A stretch of 64,000 bases of DNA from contig NZ_FNNN01000006.1 in the NCBI RefSeq assembly GCF_900106755.1, positions 186,001-250,000 of the forward strand, in the 5' to 3' direction. This stretch comes from Bacteroides faecis MAJ27. GTDB lineage: Bacteria > Bacteroidota > Bacteroidia > Bacteroidales > Bacteroidaceae. Position numbers and translations under genes: made by a program. Below, piece after piece: positions 1,779 to 13,218 of the stretch (its first letter is position 1; the number at the start of each line of letters is the position of its first letter). Under the pieces are notes generated by a model. The model was not told the DNA's origin. It saw only the letters and a list, made by a program, of their open reading frames with translations, and did no database searches.

Positions 1779-3854
1779 TTAGTTATCTTTCTGTTCCTTC
1801 AACCATCTTTCCACTTTTTCTACCATCGGCATTTCATACAGAAATATCCAGTCACTGTTGTTACTTAAAGCAGACAAGTGATGATGGTGGTTCTGGTCGG
1901 CAATATACCCCTCCGGACTCTCCATAAAACGAGTTTGCGAATAAGTCTTTTCAAATTCAGCACGCATACTTTTGAAGGAGTTACAAACGTCACCTATCCT
2001 TACTAATGCTTGAAGACGTTCTTCATCGTTTTTTGTACTGTCATAAACCTCTAAAATTTCCAACAATTTCACCGGATAGTGAAACAGTTCGTTCGTCTGC
2101 TTATAAATATCCAACGTGTAGCGATTGCGTAAAGCTGCCTGTTCAGCTACTTTCAAGCCTTTACAAATCTTCTCATAACGCGCCGATTCAATGCGGACGG
2201 TATCCAGTCTTCCCTGATATTTCCGCTTCCATTCTCCCGGTTTCTCCGAATCCGGCAAATCCAGCAACCGGAATGTTTCCGATACTCCCCAAGCAGGATT
2301 TCGCGTGCCGGAAACGACTAATGCCTGATCAAAGAAGAAAGCAGCTTTCTCCATTTCCGTCAGAAACTCCATTTGCTGACCGGACAATCCGAACTCCCTC
2401 CGGGCGTGCGCCCGGATAAACTCATCCACAGTCCGCCCGTCCGGATGCCAACTATATTCGCCCTGTGCTATAAGTCCGCGCATCACCGTTTCCCAATGGG
2501 CAGAGGCATCATCCCAAGCCGTGGCAAGGATGCCCTTCAACTGATTCTGAGAAACAAGTTTGCAGAAATCTTTAATATATTGTGCCCTGGAGTTGTTTCT
2601 GGGCATGAATGGGGTCTCGCCGGTCGCTGCGGCGGTAGCTCCCATTACATTCAGTCCATTCTTATGATACCATTCCAGGAGCATCTGATGGGACAAGACG
2701 GTAGGGTCTTCGTAATGCCAACGCATATAGATGCAATTCTTCGGGAACATCTTGATAGCTTCGTCCAGCCGGGAGGTATTCCAGTTCTTACGAATTTCAT
2801 CATCGGTGAGCGGGCGATGCAACAACCACCAAAGGTCGGCATATTTCAAAGGCATATCATCCCAGAAGATGGGAGTTCTGCCATGTTCCACAGCAAAGTC
2901 ACAGACCTTTTTGAGCCAGATCATCTGCAATTCAAAAGCTGTTTTTCCGGTCGCTTTACAACGTTCGTCTATGCCGATAGCCGTTATTTCATCTCCACCG
3001 ATATGAAGATACTTGCCATCAGGCATGGCTTCCATCGCATCCCGGTAAAGATCAAACTGTAACTCATAGGTACGCGGGTCGGAAGGACAGAACTCCCAGT
3101 CACTATACGGATTTTCCCGCAGTTCCCAATGGCGTTTCAGGATAAAGCCGGCGTGTCCCAATCCTTGTACTAAGGGACTGATTTCAATATTACGTTCTTT
3201 GGCATAGCGACTGATAGCCTGCATCTCTTGTTTGCTGATGGCATTGGGGGCGCCCACTTCGGGACGGCGGGTATAGCGCAGCTTGTCTTCCACTTCCCAA
3301 ATGATGGCATTTACCTTATAGCGGGCCAGTTTATCAATGGTCCGATAGTAGTATTCCGCCCGGTCCAGATGATGCTTCGTATCAAAGTGAACGGCACGGT
3401 AAGAGATTTCGGGATAATCCGTCATTCGGAGACATGGAATAGGGATACGAAGGTCACGACTATCCTCCATTAGTTGTTCCAAGGTCTGACAACCGTAGAA
3501 CAATCCTGCTTGTCCACGCGATTGGATCGTTACTCCCCGGGATGTGATTTCCAGCGTATATCCTTCCGGAGATTCGGGTGTGTTCTGTTCCGACAGGGAA
3601 AGTGTAATACCTGCTCCTTGTTTTTCAATGCGGGGTAAAGCGTCCAGCAATGTTCCTAAAACGGGGATTTTACTTTCGCCTTTCGATACGATATATCCCA
3701 GTTCACTACCTGCTATCCCCTGCCCTTTCAATATCTCTATGTTCTGGGGTAAAGGGAGTATCTGAAAACGTGGGTCCAATCCCTTTGCCTGCGACATGGC
3801 GGAGACAAGTATAAACAGCAGTACGAAAGCTATTTTATTCTTTAATTTCTTCAT
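1779..3854 (-). CDS. GH20 beta-N-acetylhexosaminidase, secreted
   Basis: This exo-enzyme releases terminal beta-linked GlcNAc or GalNAc by substrate-assisted catalysis. Residues 1-23 form a signal peptide with no lipobox, so it is probably periplasmic. The GH20 N-terminal domain (about 28-145) precedes the TIM barrel. HIGGDE at 284-289 carries the catalytic Asp288-Glu289 pair. At 691 aa it is long for the family because of a C-terminal extension after about residue 480. It is the last gene of PUL1, 13 bp after GH123. The pairing of GH20 with GH123 suggests a substrate rich in beta-HexNAc, possibly GalNAc-containing glycans; that is inference. Confidence 0.93.
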   Translation of the reverse strand: MKKLKNKIAFVLLFILVSAMSQAKGLDPRFQILPLPQNIEILKGQGIAGSELGYIVSKGESKIPVLGTLLDALPRIEKQGAGITLSLSEQNTPESPEGYTLEITSRGVTIQSRGQAGLFYGCQTLEQLMEDSRDLRIPIPCLRMTDYPEISYRAVHFDTKHHLDRAEYYYRTIDKLARYKVNAIIWEVEDKLRYTRRPEVGAPNAISKQEMQAISRYAKERNIEISPLVQGLGHAGFILKRHWELRENPYSDWEFCPSDPRTYELQFDLYRDAMEAMPDGKYLHIGGDEITAIGIDERCKATGKTAFELQMIWLKKVCDFAVEHGRTPIFWDDMPLKYADLWWLLHRPLTDDEIRKNWNTSRLDEAIKMFPKNCIYMRWHYEDPTVLSHQMLLEWYHKNGLNVMGATAAATGETPFMPRNNSRAQYIKDFCKLVSQNQLKGILATAWDDASAHWETVMRGLIAQGEYSWHPDGRTVDEFIRAHARREFGLSGQQMEFLTEMEKAAFFFDQALVVSGTRNPAWGVSETFRLLDLPDSEKPGEWKRKYQGRLDTVRIESARYEKICKGLKVAEQAALRNRYTLDIYKQTNELFHYPVKLLEILEVYDSTKNDEERLQALVRIGDVCNSFKSMRAEFEKTYSQTRFMESPEGYIADQNHHHHLSALSNNSDWIFLYEMPMVEKVERWLKEQKDN

Positions 3855-3867
3855 TATCTATTTCTGT

Positions 3868-5583
3868 TTAATCATTTGCAGATAGTTCTTTCAATGTTCC
3901 TTCGGCTATTCCTACCCACTTGGCGGCTTCACGCCCCGAAGCAGAGGTGAAATTGCGGATAGCTGCGTCCAGTTGTCCGTTGTTCAGTATACGTGCCTTC
4001 TCAAAATCCTGAATGCCTTCCCGCAGCAGTTCCAGACGGATGCTGGAGATGGGAACAGCGGCGGCGGTATTTTCGCTGCGATAAATCATATTGAAGTCGC
4101 CGGACGCATTACTTCTATCCTGTGCACTGGTAGGGTCAGACTGTGTCCAGTAATCGTATGCCCAGCGCAGATATCCGTCAAATCCTTTTGCCAGCGCATA
4201 CCACGCCATCCACGACATTTCTGCCGGATTGGTTTGCGCCGTAACGTAGTTGTTCGGGTATTGCTGCGAGCAACTGGTGTAGAAGGTAGAAACGGCATTG
4301 TCCGACTGGCGCTCGTAGCCTAAAATGGTCGAATAATCATACAGGCTGTTCTCTATCCCGCTGTCGACATTTCCTCCCGACAGTCCTATTTTCCAGTTCG
4401 CATCGTTCTCTTTGATTAAAGCTATGATTGACTTCATACCGTCTTCTTTAATCTCATCCATATAAAGCACGGTTTTGTCAAACCAGCCTTTTTCTTGCAG
4501 ATGCGTCTTGAAAGAAGTCAGGAAAGCAGACCACACTGTCTTGTATTCTTCCGTACCGATGGTGAGTTCCAATGTCCGGTCCGTGCCCGACGCGTCTTTA
4601 TATCCGACAGACGTCTTCCATCCGGCCAAAGAAAAACAGCTGATCTGTTTATTGATTCCCCATTCCATCATTTTCCCGACATATTTATCAAAATCGGTAT
4701 AGTCGAATATCCACTCGTCGGAACTGTTTTTCGACCACTTCACCATCGTTTGTCCGCTATTGAAAGCACCGTCCTTGATATACGTGGTGATTACCTTCTG
4801 CCCGGCATCTGCCAACAGTTGATAAAACGGCTTCATCATCGCAAAATATTCGTCGGAGAAAGGAACGACATTTTCTCCGTTGTCCCGACACAGAGTTGTC
4901 AATTGGAAAGGGAACTGCCATAAATCAAGATGGAAACTCCAATCGGCTACCGCAGGCAACTGATGATCTACGACAAGCAATTCCAGATTAAACTTCTGCT
5001 TCACTTCATTGGCTGATTTCACCTGAATGGTTCCGGTATATATGCCCGGTACGGCATCTGCCGGCGTGTTTATGGTCACCCATATCTTAACGGGATCTTG
5101 AGTGGTGAGCGTTGTGACGGGTACTTCGGAAAGGGCATCGGCAATCAAGGTAGTGGTGCGGCTCTCATAATTTCCACAATCGAGTGCCTGATCGTCTCCC
5201 TTTATATAAGAAGGGAAACGAAGTCGGATATTGGAGGCAGAGATGCTGTTCGCGTCGCTCACCAGATCCGAAACTTCATAAGTGAGGTCGTCATATTTTT
5301 TATCTCCTGACCATAACACTATCTGTTTGTGTGTACGGTCGTTCTGCCAAAGGGTGTCTTTCCAAAGGGTGACGATCTTCGCTTCTTCCATCTGAGCTTC
5401 GTGTTGCTGACCTTTGGAGTATCTCACAAACTTACTTTCGAACGAACCCCGCAGGGTAGTAACGGCAGGATCTACGGGAACGACAGGTTCTTCCCAGTTG
5501 TCGGTTGGCAACCCCTCGGTACAGGCTATTACTCCATAAGCCAGTGAAAACAAAAATATACTGCTTAATAAGAATTTCTTCAT
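3868..5583 (-). CDS. GH123 / DUF4091 beta-N-acetylgalactosaminidase-like lipoprotein
   Basis: The lipobox VIAC places the lipid-bearing Cys at residue 21, followed by acidic residues, so the protein is probably anchored in the outer membrane. An N-terminal beta-sandwich (about 40-205) precedes a TIM barrel. VLYMDE at 372-377 provides the Asp-Glu pair (D376-E377) that matches the substrate-assisted catalytic pair of the GH123/DUF4091 family, whose characterised members release beta-GalNAc. Length (571 aa) is normal. It lies 10 bp after the SusE-like gene and 13 bp before GH20 in PUL1. Specificity for GalNAc is inferred from the family. Confidence 0.85.
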   Translation of the reverse strand: MKKFLLSSIFLFSLAYGVIACTEGLPTDNWEEPVVPVDPAVTTLRGSFESKFVRYSKGQQHEAQMEEAKIVTLWKDTLWQNDRTHKQIVLWSGDKKYDDLTYEVSDLVSDANSISASNIRLRFPSYIKGDDQALDCGNYESRTTTLIADALSEVPVTTLTTQDPVKIWVTINTPADAVPGIYTGTIQVKSANEVKQKFNLELLVVDHQLPAVADWSFHLDLWQFPFQLTTLCRDNGENVVPFSDEYFAMMKPFYQLLADAGQKVITTYIKDGAFNSGQTMVKWSKNSSDEWIFDYTDFDKYVGKMMEWGINKQISCFSLAGWKTSVGYKDASGTDRTLELTIGTEEYKTVWSAFLTSFKTHLQEKGWFDKTVLYMDEIKEDGMKSIIALIKENDANWKIGLSGGNVDSGIENSLYDYSTILGYERQSDNAVSTFYTSCSQQYPNNYVTAQTNPAEMSWMAWYALAKGFDGYLRWAYDYWTQSDPTSAQDRSNASGDFNMIYRSENTAAAVPISSIRLELLREGIQDFEKARILNNGQLDAAIRNFTSASGREAAKWVGIAEGTLKELSAND

Positions 5584-5593
5584 AATTGTTGAT

Positions 5594-6631
5594 TTATCTC
5601 GTTATAGTATAATCATAAAAAGGTGTACTCAAGTCTAATTCTATCCGGTACGTGCCAGCTTCGTCGATAGTAATATCCGTCCCTGTCTCCGACAGTCTGA
5701 CAATACCATCGGACGCCCCATACGTTACAGTCGGATCACCGGCAGAGACCGGAATAGTGGTAAATTTCAATTTTCCGGCTGCAAGTTCTGTCGTCAAAGA
5801 CCACTTGCGGGTGTCAGAATTGTAGACCATTGCTTTCACCGTTCCTGCGGCTGTCCCCGTAACAGCCCATTGTGTCTCCAGTAAAACGATCTGACGGGTA
5901 GTGAGGTCAAAATTAACTTTCCAGATGCCGGGAGAAACAATCGAGGCATTACCTCCAGTAGTTGTCCAGTCTCCCCAAGGCCCGTCACACGGATAATAGC
6001 CGGTTCCCGGAGAGGGTTTCTCCACCATCGCTAAAGTACCATAAGATTGTCCGCCGCCCAATCCGGCGCTAACATCAAAATAGGCGGACTGGTCGGATTG
6101 CACCAAGCCGATGTTGTTCCAGCTCGTATTTGTCAAGTCTATATATCCTTCAAACAGATTATTATAGGTAATGGAAGCAATGGTCTGTGCCGTTTCTGTA
6201 TTCAGGCCATAGTAATCTCCTTTCTCACCCGACATTACCAAATACATTACCGGAGGAGGATTATAACTCATCTCCAGTAGAAAAGTCTCAGCTTGTGTCC
6301 CCTTCGTCCATTCCAATGCAAATTGGTTATTCCTGAAAGTAATCACATCTCCCACATTTATATTGACCGTAGCCGAAGGGTCGGAAACGTCTATCTGTTT
6401 CACTATGGCAGTAGTGGAAGGCTGATTGACTGCCACCAACAATGTTTTACTCAACAAACCATCCTCCTGCAACAGAGGGGTAGCCACATAGTCCGTTCCG
6501 TTCACTTCCAAGACTAATCCCGAAATAGGCGAAACAAGGGTAGGATTCTCCGGATAAGAATCTTCACTGCAAGCAACGACTCCTATCGCCAGACACAAAG
6601 TGGTTAAAATCAAAGTTATATTTCTTTTCAT
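5594..6631 (-). CDS. SusE-like surface glycan-binding lipoprotein
   Basis: The lipobox VVAC puts Cys at residue 21 and is followed by SED, an acidic stretch like the export signal of surface lipoproteins in Bacteroidetes. Three beta-rich modules follow, with many Trp, Tyr and Gly residues. The position right after susD and the similarity to SusE/SusF-type proteins (DUF5121/DUF5125-like) suggest a surface glycan-binding protein that holds polysaccharide near the SusCD importer. No catalytic motif is visible. It is 345 aa and the third gene of the susCD operon. The exact DUF assignment is uncertain. Confidence 0.75.
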   Translation of the reverse strand: MKRNITLILTTLCLAIGVVACSEDSYPENPTLVSPISGLVLEVNGTDYVATPLLQEDGLLSKTLLVAVNQPSTTAIVKQIDVSDPSATVNINVGDVITFRNNQFALEWTKGTQAETFLLEMSYNPPPVMYLVMSGEKGDYYGLNTETAQTIASITYNNLFEGYIDLTNTSWNNIGLVQSDQSAYFDVSAGLGGGQSYGTLAMVEKPSPGTGYYPCDGPWGDWTTTGGNASIVSPGIWKVNFDLTTRQIVLLETQWAVTGTAAGTVKAMVYNSDTRKWSLTTELAAGKLKFTTIPVSAGDPTVTYGASDGIVRLSETGTDITIDEAGTYRIELDLSTPFYDYTITR

Positions 6632-6664: not shown

Positions 6665-8131
6665 TTAATTGTATCCGGGGTTCTGAACAATACCGGTCAT
6701 GATAGTCATCTGGTCGCTCGGTTTCGGTAGAAGATAATTGTGGTCGTCAATCTTTGCCTCCGGATAATAAGCTTCCAAAGTCTCCTTCAGAATATGACGA
6801 CGGCACAAATCGAACCAACGATTACATTCAAAAGCCAATTCCCAGTTACGTTCGTCCAATACCGCCTTGTCAAACTGTGCCGGAGTCAGTCCCGATAGTT
6901 TAGTCAGTCCTGCCCGTTCGCGGACTTCATTGATAGCATCGTATGCTGCTTTTGAAGGGCTGCCCTCTGCCAGATTAGCGGCTTCCGCGTAGATCAGCAA
7001 CACATCGGCATAGCGTAACATACAGAAAAATCCGTCCGCTTTATTAGCTGTAGCTATCCCTGAATATCCTCCGCTCTTTGGACCCGCATCCCGGTACTTT
7101 CCCACATAAGGCTGTGCCACATTGGTATCTTCCCACGAAGCACCGTCTCTCATCCGAGTATAAAAAGTCCCGCTCAAACGGCTGCCATCTCCTACGGGAA
7201 AAGTTTCCAGAAAGCGTTTGTCACTGGTCCAATCTGCCCAACCGTTTTCTCCGTGATCCGTAGGACGCACGGCCTGATGGATATAACTGCCTGTTGCATT
7301 GTCCGAACTGGCATAAAGCGCAAAGATAAATTCGGAGTTTATTTTACGGTTGCTCCATAACCACAATTGGGAATATACTTTTTCTAAGGTATAGACCTTT
7401 TCACTAATTACTTCATTAGCCTTATCACGTGCCAGCGCATAACAGGAAGTCTCATTCAACGGAAATCCCGCCATTGTCAAATAGACTTTTGCCAGCAACG
7501 CTTTTGCCGCCCAACGGCTGGGACGGCTCGGATCATCCTGTGAAAGAGGCAATGTCAACTCTGCATTCTTCAAATCAGAAACTATCTGCTCGTAAATCCG
7601 GGCAACACTCGCCTGAGGCTCTTTTGCCGCATTATCCTGATTTTCCTCCGTCAACAATGGCACTTCGCCAAACCAACGCACCAACTGGAAGTAATTAAAA
7701 GCACGCAAGAAATGGGCTTCCCCGCCAATCGGGGACAATTCGTCGGGAGATAATTTCGTGTTCTCACCGATAATCTTTATCAATGTATTGCACGCGCTAA
7801 TACTTGTGTAATATGAGTTCCATAACTCATCCGTCACTTCGTCCGGATTTCCTACTGTGTTAATGTTAACCTGTTCGAATCCTTTCCATCTGATGACGGG
7901 GGTATTTACATCTTCGGCACCTGCACTGGCCGCATAGGGCATATCGGTACCATATAAAAGGATTAAGGGGGTATAGGCTCCTGTGATATAGCTATTGAAG
8001 TCGGTCAGTGTCTGGAAGAACTTATCGACAGTTGGCTGTCCGGTAAGATTCTCTGTCAAATCGGCACAACTCGTACTTAATATTATCGCCAATAATCCGA
8101 CGCAGCTCTTTTTTATAAGTGTACAATTCAT
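6665..8131 (-). CDS. SusD/RagB-family outer-membrane nutrient-binding lipoprotein (PUL1)
   Basis: SusD proteins cap the SusC channel and bind glycan at the cell surface. Lipobox LSTSC (Cys22) is followed by the usual TENLTGQPTVDKFF region. The helical TPR-like core shows the conserved stretches LRAFNYFQLVRWFGEVPL, AKALLAKVYL and NEVRERAGL, and the C-terminus ends in the typical GIVQNPGYN. At 488 aa it is full length. It follows susC by 23 bp and is read with it. Confidence 0.95.
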   Translation of the reverse strand: MNCTLIKKSCVGLLAIILSTSCADLTENLTGQPTVDKFFQTLTDFNSYITGAYTPLILLYGTDMPYAASAGAEDVNTPVIRWKGFEQVNINTVGNPDEVTDELWNSYYTSISACNTLIKIIGENTKLSPDELSPIGGEAHFLRAFNYFQLVRWFGEVPLLTEENQDNAAKEPQASVARIYEQIVSDLKNAELTLPLSQDDPSRPSRWAAKALLAKVYLTMAGFPLNETSCYALARDKANEVISEKVYTLEKVYSQLWLWSNRKINSEFIFALYASSDNATGSYIHQAVRPTDHGENGWADWTSDKRFLETFPVGDGSRLSGTFYTRMRDGASWEDTNVAQPYVGKYRDAGPKSGGYSGIATANKADGFFCMLRYADVLLIYAEAANLAEGSPSKAAYDAINEVRERAGLTKLSGLTPAQFDKAVLDERNWELAFECNRWFDLCRRHILKETLEAYYPEAKIDDHNYLLPKPSDQMTIMTGIVQNPGYN

Positions 8132-8154: not shown

Positions 8155-11100
8155 TTAAAACGAAATATCCAACCCTACAAGGAAACTCTTTGACGAAGGA
8201 TACACACCACGGTCCACGCCTGCCGCATCCGAGTCTGCTCCCATACTTGCTTCCGGATCAAATCCCGAATAATTGGTTATTGTCCATAGATTATTGGCAC
8301 TGACATAGATACGGGCGGAAGAACATCCTATTTTTGACAGTATCTTGTGCGGAATACGATAGCCCAATGTGATATTTTTCAAGCGCAAATAGTCTCCCTT
8401 CTCCACCCAACGGGAAGAATTAACATACTCTGCTCCCGAAAAAGCAGGAATATTTGTCGGATTTTCCGGTGTCCAATGATTTTTCATAACCGTACTGGTC
8501 GGGAATGCATCTGACGAATAAGTCTCACGCCGGATACGATTCTGATTATAAATGTCATTACCGGATACTCCCTGACAGAAAATATTCAGGTCGAAATCAA
8601 AAATCGTAAATGTATTGTTGAATCCGAAGCTCAACTTCGGCTGGGCATTACCGATAATGCCTATATCATCCTTATCTATTTTTCCATCACGGTTGATATC
8701 TACATATTTGGCATCTCCGGGCTTTGCTCCGTAAAGCGCAGCCGTCGAAACTTCTGATTTCTGCCAAACACCGGCAAAGGTATATCCGAGGAATGTGCCC
8801 ATCGGTTGTCCCACCATCTGGACATAAGAACCCACCAATCCCGGATAATCGGCACCGGTTGTAATAAGCGTATTGGAGAGCCCGTCCAGTTCGAGAATCT
8901 TATTTTTATTGATATTCAATGTATAATTTATGTCCCATTTAAAATGTTTGGTAGAGACAGGAATGCCACCCAACATGATATCAAATCCTTTATTGGACAC
9001 GGAACCGACATTGGTAAGGATGGAACTGACACCCAATACCGAAGGTACTTTCTGCCACATCAACAGGTCTGTGGTTTTCTTGTTATAATATTCGGCTGAG
9101 AAACTCAAACGCCCTCCCCACCACCGACTGTCTATACCGATGTTCAACTCACGGGTACGTTCCCATTTCAGATTTTCATTGCCTAAATCTGATATGGCTA
9201 AAGTCGGGTTTCCGCTATCGTCCATGCCCGGATAAAACTTTAAATGAGAAGAGTAAGCGGGCACTGCCGCATTGCCTACCGTACCGTAACTCCCGCGAAT
9301 TTTAAACTCCGGTACCATATCTTTCAGCCTTTTCATAAACTTCTCTTCCATAAGATTCCATCCTAATGAAAATGCTGTAAAATTGTCGTATTTGTTTCCT
9401 TCTGCCAACTGGCTGGCTCCATCATAACGAACCGATCCGGAAAACATGTATTTATTCTTATAACTATAATTCACACGACCCATAAAAGACTGCATCACTG
9501 TAGTAGAATACTCCACCCAAGGGGCCTGCAAAATAGAACCGAACTGCACTCCATTATATCCCATTCCCACCGGGATTCCTCTGGAAGATGCAGATGTGCT
9601 CTGATAATTATCCTTCAATACTTCGTATACTCCGGTAGCCTGAACGGTATGATCGCCAAAAGCCTTATCAAAAGTCAGAATACTGGTACTTTGCAAAGCA
9701 ATATAGCGTGATTGGGCCTTACTTCCGTTAATATCTCTAATATCGCCATTATTGACACGCTGATTATCAAAATACCCATTGGTATCGCTATGAGTCTTAT
9801 ATGAAAACAAAGAAGATAATTTGAGGAAATCCCAGAATTTATATTCTCCCATTAAAGAAGCATTAAAAGAAGCAACGGATTTATCGTCCACTATCTCCAA
9901 AGCATACCCCACCGGATTGTACAATGAAACCGGTCCTATTCCTCCACCCGGCTGTGTATATCCTCCTTCACTATCGGGATCATAGATGCGTTTCGTAGGC
10001 GACCATTGAAGTGCTGCATTAATAGCCTGTTCATAATCTCCATTGTGCGTCTCGTCATAAGAGGCAAACGTATTCAGCGACAAATTCAAACGGGATGTAG
10101 CCTGAACTTTAAAGTTTGCACGAAAAGTATATTGTTTAAAATTGGTATTCTGCACAATGCCATCTTTATTGGTATATCCTCCAGCTATGAAATAAGAAAT
10201 GCTTTCTTTCGCTCCACTGATACTGATGTTATGTGATTGGGAAACCGCATTCCGAAAAATCTTATCCTGCCAGTCCGTACTGTTTCCTTCCAACGGAATC
10301 TCATCCGGCCCAAAAACAGGATTGAGCCCATTCTCTTCCTGAGCCTCATTCATCAGCAGGGCATATTCTTTTGCATTCAATGCAGGCAAGGTTTTCCGTA
10401 CTTCATCAAATGAAACAAAACCGTTGTAAGACACCTGCGGCTTTCCGGTTTTCCCATTTTTAGTTGTCACCAGAATAACACCGTTCGCACCTTTCGAACC
10501 ATAGACAGAAAGGGCTGCGGCATCTTTCAATACTTCTATGGATTCTATCTGATTAGGATTCAAGCTCCCGATATTCCCATCTTGAACACCATCGATTATG
10601 ATCAAAGGATCATTTCCATAAGTCAGCGAGTTGGCTCCACGGATGCGGATCGTTGCCGATCCCGAAGGAGCACCACTGGAATTCTGCACAACAACACCTG
10701 CCACACGTCCTTGCAATGCCTGCGCAGTACTGGCATTAGGAGCTGACAATAGCTCTGCTGACTTTACGGAAGAAACGGAACCGGTGATATCACTTTTCTT
10801 TTGTACACCATACCCCACGACAACTACTTCATCCAATACTTTAGTGTCTTCCTTCAGGACAATCCGAAGCAGATTCTTACTATCGGCAGCTCGAAGTTCC
10901 ACACTCTGATAACCGATATAGGAGACTGAAATCCAGGCATCTTCCGATACCTCATTTATAGTGTAGTTTCCGTCAAGGTCCGTAATTATTCCGGTTGAAG
11001 TTCCTTTCACTACCACGCTGGCCCCAATGATCGGTTCGCCCTTATCATCCACGACGGTTCCTTTGATGTTCTTCTTTGTACTGCCGTCATGAGGTTTCTG

Positions 11101-11403
11101 CGTCTTTTTCAAGATGACTATCATCTTGTTTTGCAACTTATAAGTCAAATCCTTATCCAAGACTTTATTCAGCACCTCATCCAATGATGCATTTTTGAAA
11201 GTTGCCGTAATTCTTTTATTCTCGTTCACTTCATCTGTCTTATAGATGACAGATAAACCTGTTTGTTGCTCAACTTCTTTCAATACTGTCTTCAGTGTTT
11301 CATTCTTGAATGTCTTGTTGATGACCTGGGCGTGCAAAGTCACTGTCGCCAGACAGAATGAAACTAAAAGAAGCAGCCGTAATAAGCTCTTTCGGTTGTT
11401 CAT
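8155..11403 (-). CDS. SusC/RagA TonB-dependent outer-membrane transporter with STN signalling domain (PUL1)
   Basis: This is the energised import channel for oligosaccharides. Signal peptide 1-25. The STN domain (about 28-100) is the periplasmic module that touches the FecR anti-sigma factor, so this transporter also senses its substrate. A carboxypeptidase-regulatory-like domain follows (about 113-185), then a TonB box (DEVVVVGYG, 191-199), the plug with the IRGANSLTYGNDPLIIIDGV signature, and a beta-barrel to the C-terminal F. At 1082 aa it is intact. It is immediately downstream of fecR, with a 15-bp element 20 bp before its start that is inverted before fecR. Confidence 0.96.
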   Translation of the reverse strand: MNNRKSLLRLLLLVSFCLATVTLHAQVINKTFKNETLKTVLKEVEQQTGLSVIYKTDEVNENKRITATFKNASLDEVLNKVLDKDLTYKLQNKMIVILKKTQKPHDGSTKKNIKGTVVDDKGEPIIGASVVVKGTSTGIITDLDGNYTINEVSEDAWISVSYIGYQSVELRAADSKNLLRIVLKEDTKVLDEVVVVGYGVQKKSDITGSVSSVKSAELLSAPNASTAQALQGRVAGVVVQNSSGAPSGSATIRIRGANSLTYGNDPLIIIDGVQDGNIGSLNPNQIESIEVLKDAAALSVYGSKGANGVILVTTKNGKTGKPQVSYNGFVSFDEVRKTLPALNAKEYALLMNEAQEENGLNPVFGPDEIPLEGNSTDWQDKIFRNAVSQSHNISISGAKESISYFIAGGYTNKDGIVQNTNFKQYTFRANFKVQATSRLNLSLNTFASYDETHNGDYEQAINAALQWSPTKRIYDPDSEGGYTQPGGGIGPVSLYNPVGYALEIVDDKSVASFNASLMGEYKFWDFLKLSSLFSYKTHSDTNGYFDNQRVNNGDIRDINGSKAQSRYIALQSTSILTFDKAFGDHTVQATGVYEVLKDNYQSTSASSRGIPVGMGYNGVQFGSILQAPWVEYSTTVMQSFMGRVNYSYKNKYMFSGSVRYDGASQLAEGNKYDNFTAFSLGWNLMEEKFMKRLKDMVPEFKIRGSYGTVGNAAVPAYSSHLKFYPGMDDSGNPTLAISDLGNENLKWERTRELNIGIDSRWWGGRLSFSAEYYNKKTTDLLMWQKVPSVLGVSSILTNVGSVSNKGFDIMLGGIPVSTKHFKWDINYTLNINKNKILELDGLSNTLITTGADYPGLVGSYVQMVGQPMGTFLGYTFAGVWQKSEVSTAALYGAKPGDAKYVDINRDGKIDKDDIGIIGNAQPKLSFGFNNTFTIFDFDLNIFCQGVSGNDIYNQNRIRRETYSSDAFPTSTVMKNHWTPENPTNIPAFSGAEYVNSSRWVEKGDYLRLKNITLGYRIPHKILSKIGCSSARIYVSANNLWTITNYSGFDPEASMGADSDAAGVDRGVYPSSKSFLVGLDISF

Positions 11404-11423
11404 AGTTTTTCTCGATTTAATTT

Positions 11424-11438
11424 AATAATAGTTGTTAC
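11424..11438. repeat. Left arm of a perfect 15-bp inverted repeat bracketing fecR of PUL1
   Basis: AATAATAGTTGTTAC on the plus strand. Its exact reverse complement lies at 12465-12479. This arm sits exactly 20 bp before the susC ATG and 10 bp after the fecR stop. Confidence 0.9.
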
Positions 11439-11448
11439 GAAATGGAAA

Positions 11449-12444
11449 TTATTCTCTGATATATATATCCTTGCCTTTACGTTCGACGGCTATCGGGATA
11501 ATCTTTTGCAAAGCCGTCATCACCTCTCCGATTGTTTCTCTGTTGCGCAGAGAAATACGGAATGTCTTGTCTCCTACAGCTTCCGATTCCAGCCGAATAT
11601 TCACATCATATTGTCGGGATAGTTTTGCAACCAGTTCCTTCAATGTAATGTGATCAAATTCTATACGGTTCTCCGCCCACGCTTTTGATTGTGAAGCGTT
11701 TACTTGGGTACGGATGAATTTTCCAGTTTCTACGTTCAATCTCATGGACTCTCCAGGAGACATCATTATCGGACTGCCTTTATAATTCAGTTCGACCGAC
11801 CCTTCGAGTAAAGTGGTGGAAATGAAAGGATCATCATCATAGGTGGATACGTCGAACTTCGTTCCTTTCACAACGATGTCATATCCATGTGTCTGCACGA
11901 TGAAAGTAGCTCCCGCTTTCTTGGTGACTTCAAAATATCCCTCACCGTTCAGTTCGACTCTGCGATTGGCGGTATTGAACTTGTTCGAATACTTCAGTGT
12001 GGAGCCTGCATTAAGCCAAACGACTGTACCGTCAGACAGAATGACTTTACTCTTCTCTCCATAGGGAGTTTCGCATACAAAATACGTTTCCGGTTGCAAT
12101 GAAGAAGAGAGTTGCCATACACCGAGGGTTCCTCCTATAGTCAGAAGTACGATAGCTGCAACAGCAGCCACTTTTCGCCAGACGGAAAATCTCGTTTTCG
12201 AAATACCCAGCATCGGGATAATGGCTTCCTGCGTGCGGATTTTGCGTTGTAATGTCTCCCACTCCTTCGTGGTATTGGAATCGGTAATGCCCGAAGCAAT
12301 CCATTCCTTTTCCCACTGTCTGAATGCCGTGCGATTTGCTTCACTTTGTCCGACATACTCAAACAATAGTTTTTCGTCTTTTCGCCGGATTCTTCCTTCG
12401 AAATACTGAACGGCCAACTCACGAATGTTTTTCTTTTCTTCCAT
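11449..12444 (-). CDS. FecR-family anti-sigma factor (PUL1)
   Basis: An inner-membrane regulator that binds the cognate ECF sigma in the cytoplasm and the STN domain of SusC in the periplasm. A cytoplasmic N-terminus (1-90) precedes one membrane helix at about 92-110 and the periplasmic FecR domain (VILSDGTVVWLNAGSTL, RRVELNGEGYFEV, FIVQTHGYDIVVKGTKFDV). The C-terminal domain resembles the one that contacts STN. I take the ATG at 12444 (MEEKKN) rather than an upstream TTG at 12471. The gene is separated from its sigma gene by a terminator and bracketed by a perfect 15-bp inverted repeat. Confidence 0.93.
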   Translation of the reverse strand: MEEKKNIRELAVQYFEGRIRRKDEKLLFEYVGQSEANRTAFRQWEKEWIASGITDSNTTKEWETLQRKIRTQEAIIPMLGISKTRFSVWRKVAAVAAIVLLTIGGTLGVWQLSSSLQPETYFVCETPYGEKSKVILSDGTVVWLNAGSTLKYSNKFNTANRRVELNGEGYFEVTKKAGATFIVQTHGYDIVVKGTKFDVSTYDDDPFISTTLLEGSVELNYKGSPIMMSPGESMRLNVETGKFIRTQVNASQSKAWAENRIEFDHITLKELVAKLSRQYDVNIRLESEAVGDKTFRISLRNRETIGEVMTALQKIIPIAVERKGKDIYIRE

Positions 12445-12464
12445 AATTTCACTTTCTATAAGAT

Positions 12465-12479
12465 GTAACAACTATTATT
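12465..12479. repeat. Right arm of the 15-bp inverted repeat bracketing fecR of PUL1
   Basis: GTAACAACTATTATT on the plus strand, the exact reverse complement of 11424-11438. It sits exactly 20 bp before the fecR ATG at 12444. Confidence 0.9.
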
Positions 12480-12504
12480 TCTTTTACCCAACCACCCATA
12501 CAAA

Positions 12505-12534
12505 GAAAAAAGCAGGAATTTTTCAGTTCCTGCT
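12505..12534 (-). terminator. Terminator between sigma and fecR of PUL1
   Basis: On the minus strand AGCAGGAA and TTCCTGCT form a perfect 8-bp stem with an 8-base loop, followed by a T-rich run. It is 39 bp past the sigma stop, so sigma is likely transcribed separately from fecR-susCD. Confidence 0.85.
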
Positions 12535-12572
12535 CTTCCAATCTAATTATCAATGGTTTATATTTTCCTCTT

Positions 12573-13193
12573 TTATTTATTATTCATAATCACCCAAGCA
12601 ACAATCATAATATAAATGTCTACCGGATACTTGTCTTTGAAGTGTTTGGAGAAGCTTTTCAATGCTTTCGCTATGTGCTTCTCGACTGCCGTAGTCGATA
12701 TCTGAAGTTTATCTGCAATTTCACGATTCTTCAGTCCTTTGAAACGGCTCATCAGAAAGATTTCCCGCGAACGCTCGGGCAGCTGCCCAATGACAAGGTT
12801 GATTTGTTCCTGTAATTCGTCATATAGTAGTTTGTGCTCTGCATCTAGTGTGAAGTCGGCATAATAGAGCCTTTCTTCACCATCAATGGATGCAAGATAT
12901 TCTATCTGATGTTTCTCGACAATGGAAAGATGCTTCAAATAATTCAGGCATCCATTGCGTACCATTGCAAAAAGTAAGGAGGTGACCGATACAGCCGACA
13001 ACAACTCCCGCTTCTCCCAAAAACGCAGAAAACACTCCTGAATAATATCACGAGCCGTCTCTTCATCTTCCACGAAACGAATAGCATAGCCGCGCAAACG
13101 GGGATAATAAGCCTTAAAAAGATATTCAAATGCCTGATTATTACCTTTTCTGATCTCGTCTAATAAGAACTTTTCATCTGAAAAATCAACCAT
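12573..13193 (-). CDS. ECF-type RNA polymerase sigma-70 factor (PUL1)
   Basis: A 206-aa ECF sigma. Region 2 contains AFEYLFKAYYPRLRGYAIRF and the core-binding DIIQECFLRFW; region 4 contains LPERSREIFLMSRFKGL followed by the helix-turn-helix NREIADKLQISTTAVEKHIAKAL. It presumably activates the fecR-susC-susD operon when the paired FecR is relieved by SusC. The ATG at 13193 is about 18 bp after a housekeeping-type -7 box. A terminator separates it from fecR. Confidence 0.94.
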   Translation of the reverse strand: MVDFSDEKFLLDEIRKGNNQAFEYLFKAYYPRLRGYAIRFVEDEETARDIIQECFLRFWEKRELLSAVSVTSLLFAMVRNGCLNYLKHLSIVEKHQIEYLASIDGEERLYYADFTLDAEHKLLYDELQEQINLVIGQLPERSREIFLMSRFKGLKNREIADKLQISTTAVEKHIAKALKSFSKHFKDKYPVDIYIMIVAWVIMNNK

Positions 13194-13210: not shown

Positions 13211-13218
13211 CAAAGGTA
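13211..13218 (-). promoter_or_regulatory. Bacteroides -7 promoter box for the PUL1 sigma gene
   Basis: TACCTTTG on the minus strand matches the TAnnTTTG consensus of the primary Bacteroides sigma factor. No convincing -33 element was found at 19-21 bp. Confidence 0.55.

Follow-up and report, generated by a model that had tools for sequence, protein, structure and literature searches.

FecI/FecR-controlled SusCD loci of Bacteroides are arranged in the order ECF sigma factor, FecR with a FecR_C domain, SusC with an STN domain, and SusD. According to part of a 2020 paper, the alternative ECF sigma factors of B. thetaiotaomicron were at that time without a single known recognition motif; the same source describes a second promoter motif consisting of a −10 and a −30 part (PMC7366714). 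A TGTT near −10 has been reported in B. thetaiotaomicron for promoters of the SigW-1 (ECF) regulon and for a non-canonical promoter, in a passage that itself terms the TGTT motif non-significant (PMC12596196). Control by antisense RNA is exemplified by FopS, which is described in the section concerned as pairing with the translation initiation region (PMC11697453). Control by DNA inversion is exemplified by a Bacteroidales promoter that, in the account consulted, inverts though its adjacent recombinase is broken (PMC13114119).

The window (the whole 64-kb stretch of DNA analysed) contains a locus of the FecI/FecR type, with all genes on the minus strand. A fecI-like gene for an ECF sigma factor (12573..13193; Sigma70_r2 and Sigma70_r4_2 over cut-off) is followed by the fecR anti-sigma gene (11449..12444; FecR and FecR_C over cut-off), a gene for a susC-like TonB-dependent transporter with an STN domain (8155..11403; Plug, CarbopepD_reg_2 and STN) and a susD-like gene (6665..8131; SusD_RagB). 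These are followed by a 345-aa gene with no Pfam match at E 0.001 (5594-6631) and by GH123 (3868-5583) and GH20 (1779-3854) genes, both assigned by Pfam profile match. The start codons on the minus strand are 11401-11403 for susC and the ATG at 12442-12444 for fecR, the latter used in place of a TTG start at 12471 that was the longest choice of the ORF lister. The sequence TACCTTTG (13211..13218, minus strand) is a candidate promoter of the sigma gene, represented by its −7 part only, which fits the sigma-ABfr −7 consensus TAnnTTTG as given in part of PMC7366714. Between fecI and fecR lies an intrinsic-terminator-like hairpin with a 13-pair stem and a T run (12506..12539, minus strand). One terminator-like hairpin against a shuffle mean of 1.2 is not significant alone; a hairpin with a T run was found in the fecR leader of 18 of 30 orthologues.

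The inverted repeat and its chance expectation

The initial annotation had reported a perfect 15-bp inverted repeat around fecR, with each arm 20 bp before a start codon. The observation itself is confirmed: AATAATAGTTGTTAC at 11424-11438 on the plus strand and its exact complement at 12465-12479 match at 15/15 bases. On the minus strand, the susC-leader arm (11424..11438) reads GTAACAACTATTATT in the sense RNA, and the fecR-leader arm (12465..12479) forms part of the spacer and the −10 of a promoter-like element described below. The distance from arm to ATG is indeed 20 bp on both sides in this genome. This equal spacing is not kept across clades; in the second clade the distance to the ATG is 19 bp for the fecR arm (L004) and 15-16 bp for the susC arm. 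When the 5.96-Mb draft genome (76 contigs) was searched for the 15-mer with at most one mismatch, two sites were found, both of them repeat arms.

How unusual is such a repeat? In 864 kb of this genome there are 17 perfect inverted repeats of at least 15 bp with arms 100-2000 bp apart: 1 lies inside the window and 16 in 800 kb taken from the rest of the genome, where several are pieces of one longer repeat. The presence of some perfect 15-bp repeat anywhere within a window of 64 kb is unremarkable. For the two gaps in question, the statement of the initial annotation that a chance match is very unlikely stands: in 20,000 rounds of shuffling the 45-nt gap, a 15-bp complement arose 0 times and a 14-bp complement 2 times. 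In addition, 165 pairs of adjacent co-directional gene leaders were scored in the same 864 kb, with genes called as ATG ORFs of at least 90 aa; the longest complement was 15 at this locus versus at most 11 in the other 164 pairs. The whole genome has about seven times as many leader pairs as were scored; on that basis a chance origin of the leader-to-leader repeat is improbable, though not absurd.

No comparable complement is seen at other fecR loci. Across five Bacteroides genomes no complement exceeded 11, and the longest were mostly A-rich (56 loci scored of 60 fetched, the gap of the other 4 being shorter than 15 nt). Among the FecR_C loci of this genome, the longest complement outside the present locus was 10 and A-rich (19 loci entered; of the 18 others, 2 lacked an ATG and the gap of 1 was of zero length; the set excluded L035 and six susC genes that carry a FecR_C domain). 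As a separate observation made by eye, the fecR-susC gaps at L012, L015, L019, L025 and L028 of this genome are long, and in them a TTAACC-like or GAACC-like motif is followed by a very short ORF and, ahead of susC, by a hairpin-like stretch; these are possibly antisense sRNA or terminator regions.

These numbers bear on the main rival to a functional reading, in which the two arms have no functional link. The fecR arm would be conserved for its promoter role and the susC arm as part of a separate leader element, and their complementarity would be aided by AT-rich sequence and inherited or re-formed in two related clades. The genome-wide frequency of such repeats and the fact that this one was singled out after the fact speak for coincidence, and the shuffles, the ranking among leader pairs and the absence of any complement above 11 in the 56 scored loci speak against it. 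The remaining evidence on this rival comes from the orthologues.

A conserved promoter-like element before fecR

The firmest result of the sequence comparison is a conserved promoter-like element, to which the fecR arm belongs. The element, GGTTGGGTA-N12-GTTGTTACATC (12462..12493, minus strand), was recognized by orthologue comparison and a genus pattern search. The pattern GGTTGGGTA-N14-TGTT was observed with constant spacing before 27 of 30 fecR orthologues, 24 of them exact and 3 one letter off; L058, L084 and L011 were the three of the 30 in which it was not found. In the 27 orthologues with the element, TGTT starts 24-27 nt before the fecR ATG, ATC follows within a few bases in 25, and TATAG lies inside the last 25 nt in 21. 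The orthologues come from Bacteroides and other genera, and 30 is a lower bound, as scoring covered at most 5-13 candidates in each genome at E 1e-60 or 1e-70. An orthologue search of the phylum at E 1e-60 yielded hits in 3 of 395 genomes, none of them a new locus. They remained from 36 loci after removal of L003-L007, which duplicate loci already included, and of L056, which is cut at a contig end. The element occurs without a susC arm or repeat at 21 of the 27 loci that bear it, which counts in favour of the coincidence reading.

A strict 32-base form of the pattern gave one match each in 12 of 158 genus genomes, every one at a fecR orthologue; 4 of the 16 genus genomes with an orthologue among the matches listed deviate from this form. 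A relaxed scan of the genome itself with 3 mismatches did not discriminate (31 matches versus 25 in a reversed control). A sigma-70 scan, being unsuited to Bacteroides, was left out of the promoter calls. The sequence features of an ECF-type (PM2/TGTT) promoter, namely TGTT near −10 and an upstream element at a fixed distance, were found here; a start site about 10 nt after TGTT and dependence on the cognate sigma factor would be further marks of such a promoter. The element very probably serves the cognate sigma factor as promoter for fecR-susC. No earlier report of the GGTTGGGTA-N14-TGTT element was found in the open-licence papers searched.

Two further observations concern individual loci. 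The fecR-susC gap of L053 (genome G142) contains a second promoter-like element, GGGTGGGTAAAATCACGCGCCATTGTTCTATC, before susC, and its TTGTT sits within a terminator-like hairpin (GCGCCATTGTT / AACGATGGCGC). At L046-L050 the gene after the same fecR begins MNIT(Q/E)IGR(F/L)GMLLMMASVAI, unlike the susC starts at other loci, and the fecR promoter of this clade may therefore drive a different next gene.

The susC-side arm in two clades

The initial annotation had suggested a search of related genomes for the same arms around fecR. Such a search returned matched arms at 6 of the 30 loci, and the susC arm is lineage-specific, being confined to two Bacteroides clades: clade 1 comprises this genome, G155 and G026, and clade 2 comprises G006, G098 and G031. 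A fecI-like ORF lies upstream on the same strand at 6/6 of these loci. The arm belongs to a susC-leader element, GTAACAACT-N-TTAAATC (11414..11438, minus strand), identified by genus pattern search. This element has 11 matches in the 158 genus genomes, of which 6 are in the fecR-susC gaps of the six repeat-bearing genomes and 5 inside open frames of 274-1006 codons. The gap is 45 nt or 38-39 nt long in the repeat-bearing clades, and four gaps elsewhere, of only 11-18 nt, have no room for an arm. Complements of 7 bp near the susC ATG of L041 and L042 (TAACAAC), and likewise of 7 bp in L008, are no more than background.

Both arms differ between the clades, the arm sequence being AATAATAGTTGTTAC in clade 1 and AATTAGTTGTTACA in clade 2, and each clade matches itself: own pairs agree over 15 bp (clade 1) and 14 bp (clade 2), versus 11 and 10 for cross-clade pairs. 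This retention of 14-15 bp in two clades with both arms changed speaks against coincidence. To the left of TTGTT, the own-pair match covers 8 bases in clade 1 and 6 in clade 2, compared with no more than 4 and 3, respectively, when the spacer is taken from a locus of another clade (26 loci). The match thereby reaches into a promoter spacer that is variable across the family. FecR identity between the clades is 65%, with 43% agreement at 88 four-fold sites; despite this divergence, GTAACAACTA in the susC leader is identical in both. The FecR tree does not join the two clades, and the repeat label needs two changes on it, one change sufficing in 0 of 200 bootstrap trees. The well-supported branches are compatible with a single origin of the repeat, which may have given rise to both clades' copies.

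A role of the susC arm at the DNA level would be another explanation. The arm might act as an inverted −10 for antisense transcription into fecR, or both arms might bind one regulator. It does contain GTTGTTAC reading away from susC, and DonS-like RNAs are described, in part of PMC7366714, as divergent to susC homologues. However, no GGTTGGGTA was found at promoter spacing (+/−3 nt) upstream of the inverted copy, where at least 6/9 letters differ in this genome and 5/9 in L043. The identity of the arms also extends to spacer positions that are variable in the rest of the family, and no Rfam match was obtained in the window at gathering scores. A DNA-level role is improbable. The specific candidate of a fecR-type promoter in reverse before susC was rejected for this genome and L043, in which the GGTTGGGTA-like upstream part is missing.

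Site-specific inversion of fecR between the arms, the first reading of the initial annotation, would silence the anti-sigma gene with transcription still reaching susC; with the −10 inside the arm, either orientation would leave the promoter intact. Perfect arms surround one gene, recombination would homogenise the arms as observed in both clades, and an enzyme acting in trans could come from other parts of the genome, which has 36 tyrosine and 7 serine recombinase matches. Of the three marks of an invertible element looked for, the perfect repeat (15 bp) was found, and both orientations and a nearby recombinase were not. At 6/6 repeat loci, with one genome per species, fecR is forward, pointing the same way as the sigma gene and susC. 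The 253-kb contig C46 has no PF00589 (Phage_integrase) or PF00239 (Resolvase) match, which bears out, and extends to the whole contig, the remark that no recombinase is nearby. There is no further arm copy in the genome for a shared invertase, and a promoter-like element, conserved also at loci that lack the repeat, accounts for the fecR arm. Absence of a recombinase nearby is not proof against inversion, since the promoter described in part of PMC13114119 inverts with a broken one next to it, and a rare inversion is compatible with one genome per species. Overall, inversion is poorly supported and highly improbable.

Possible pairing of the two leaders and comparison with known systems

The favoured reading, to which a probability of about 0.4 is given, is that the spacer and −10 of the promoter double as an antisense lock on susC in the read-through mRNA. 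It is favoured because matched arms reaching into a varying spacer fit pairing better than a second binding site. In this model, fecI, the terminator, the ECF-type promoter, fecR, susC and susD make up a single locus. The fecR arm is part of the spacer and the −10 of the putative cognate-sigma promoter, which would drive fecR-susC-susD once the sigma factor is free. In the two Bacteroides clades, the fecR-susC gap holds a complementary copy of this promoter stretch. RNA started at the promoter, from a presumed start site just past the arm, would have an open susC leader. RNA coming from fecI and running on past the terminator would carry the arm and, as a presumed shared transcript, would pair with the susC leader in the cell. 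The predicted effect of this pairing is damped susC translation, with fecR still made. The broader idea that translation is set by the promoter of origin, the susC leader being masked in mRNA that leaks through from upstream and accessible in mRNA made by the freed sigma factor, is rather doubtful.

The initial annotation had offered long-range pairing of the two leaders in a fecR-susC mRNA as its second reading. This is possible for a read-through RNA, but transcripts from the fecR promoter should start past the arm and lack it, which limits pairing to read-through RNA. In modelled folds of read-through RNAs the arms pair with a mean probability of 0.94-0.99 at 5 of 6 loci, and with a probability of only 0.06 at L043. 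The folds are weak evidence, because a perfect complement this long is expected to fold so. The duplex energies are −15.9 and −15.1 kcal/mol. Such a duplex would have to bridge a translated gene of 1 kb and would stop 15-20 nt short of the susC ATG.

Comparative evidence for leader-leader pairing was found on one side only: in the compensatory-change test the arms match within each of two clades though they differ between them, whereas no sign of pairing was detected in the other orthologues. In the 24 orthologues without the repeat, own-pair complement was not in excess (p = 0.925, with the L008 leader there taken from a wrong upstream ATG). Duplex energy likewise showed no own-pair excess in 12 clade representatives without the repeat (p = 0.40, with the L008 leader corrected), and adding the two repeat clades, for 14 representatives, gave p = 0.034. 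The lack of complement where the repeat is absent is what coincidence would predict, and this rival is a serious contender, albeit with odds well short of even. The matching changes between the clades are few and AT-only, and the evidence for the lock, resting on two clades and these few AT changes, is thin.

If the pairing is real, the cell could distinguish leaky from induced mRNAs of a glycan-uptake operon through their sequence, without needing a further gene. Whether or not pairing occurs, a conserved two-part promoter-like element has been defined for one subfamily of FecI/FecR PULs and is directly testable.

What distinguishes this locus from the systems described so far? With the invertible promoters of Bacteroidales, as presented in part of PMC13114119, it has a perfect inverted repeat in common; here, however, the repeat brackets a whole gene, the contig has no recombinase match and no inverted copy was seen. 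With promoter motif 2 and the TGTT −10 promoters of B. thetaiotaomicron, as far as the relevant passages describe them (PMC7366714, PMC12596196), the common feature is TGTT at a plausible −10; the comparison covers the TGTT part. DonS-like antisense RNAs and FopS sRNAs, as portrayed in sections of PMC7366714 and PMC11697453, likewise present antisense sequence against susC mRNA. Unlike in those cases, the proposed antisense stretch would act in cis, within the same read-through mRNA, and no known sRNA family was found in the window. Finally, the gene order is that of the FecI/FecR-controlled SusCD loci of Bacteroides, from which the present locus differs in that its fecR-susC gap is just 45 nt long and contains a mirrored stretch of the fecR promoter.
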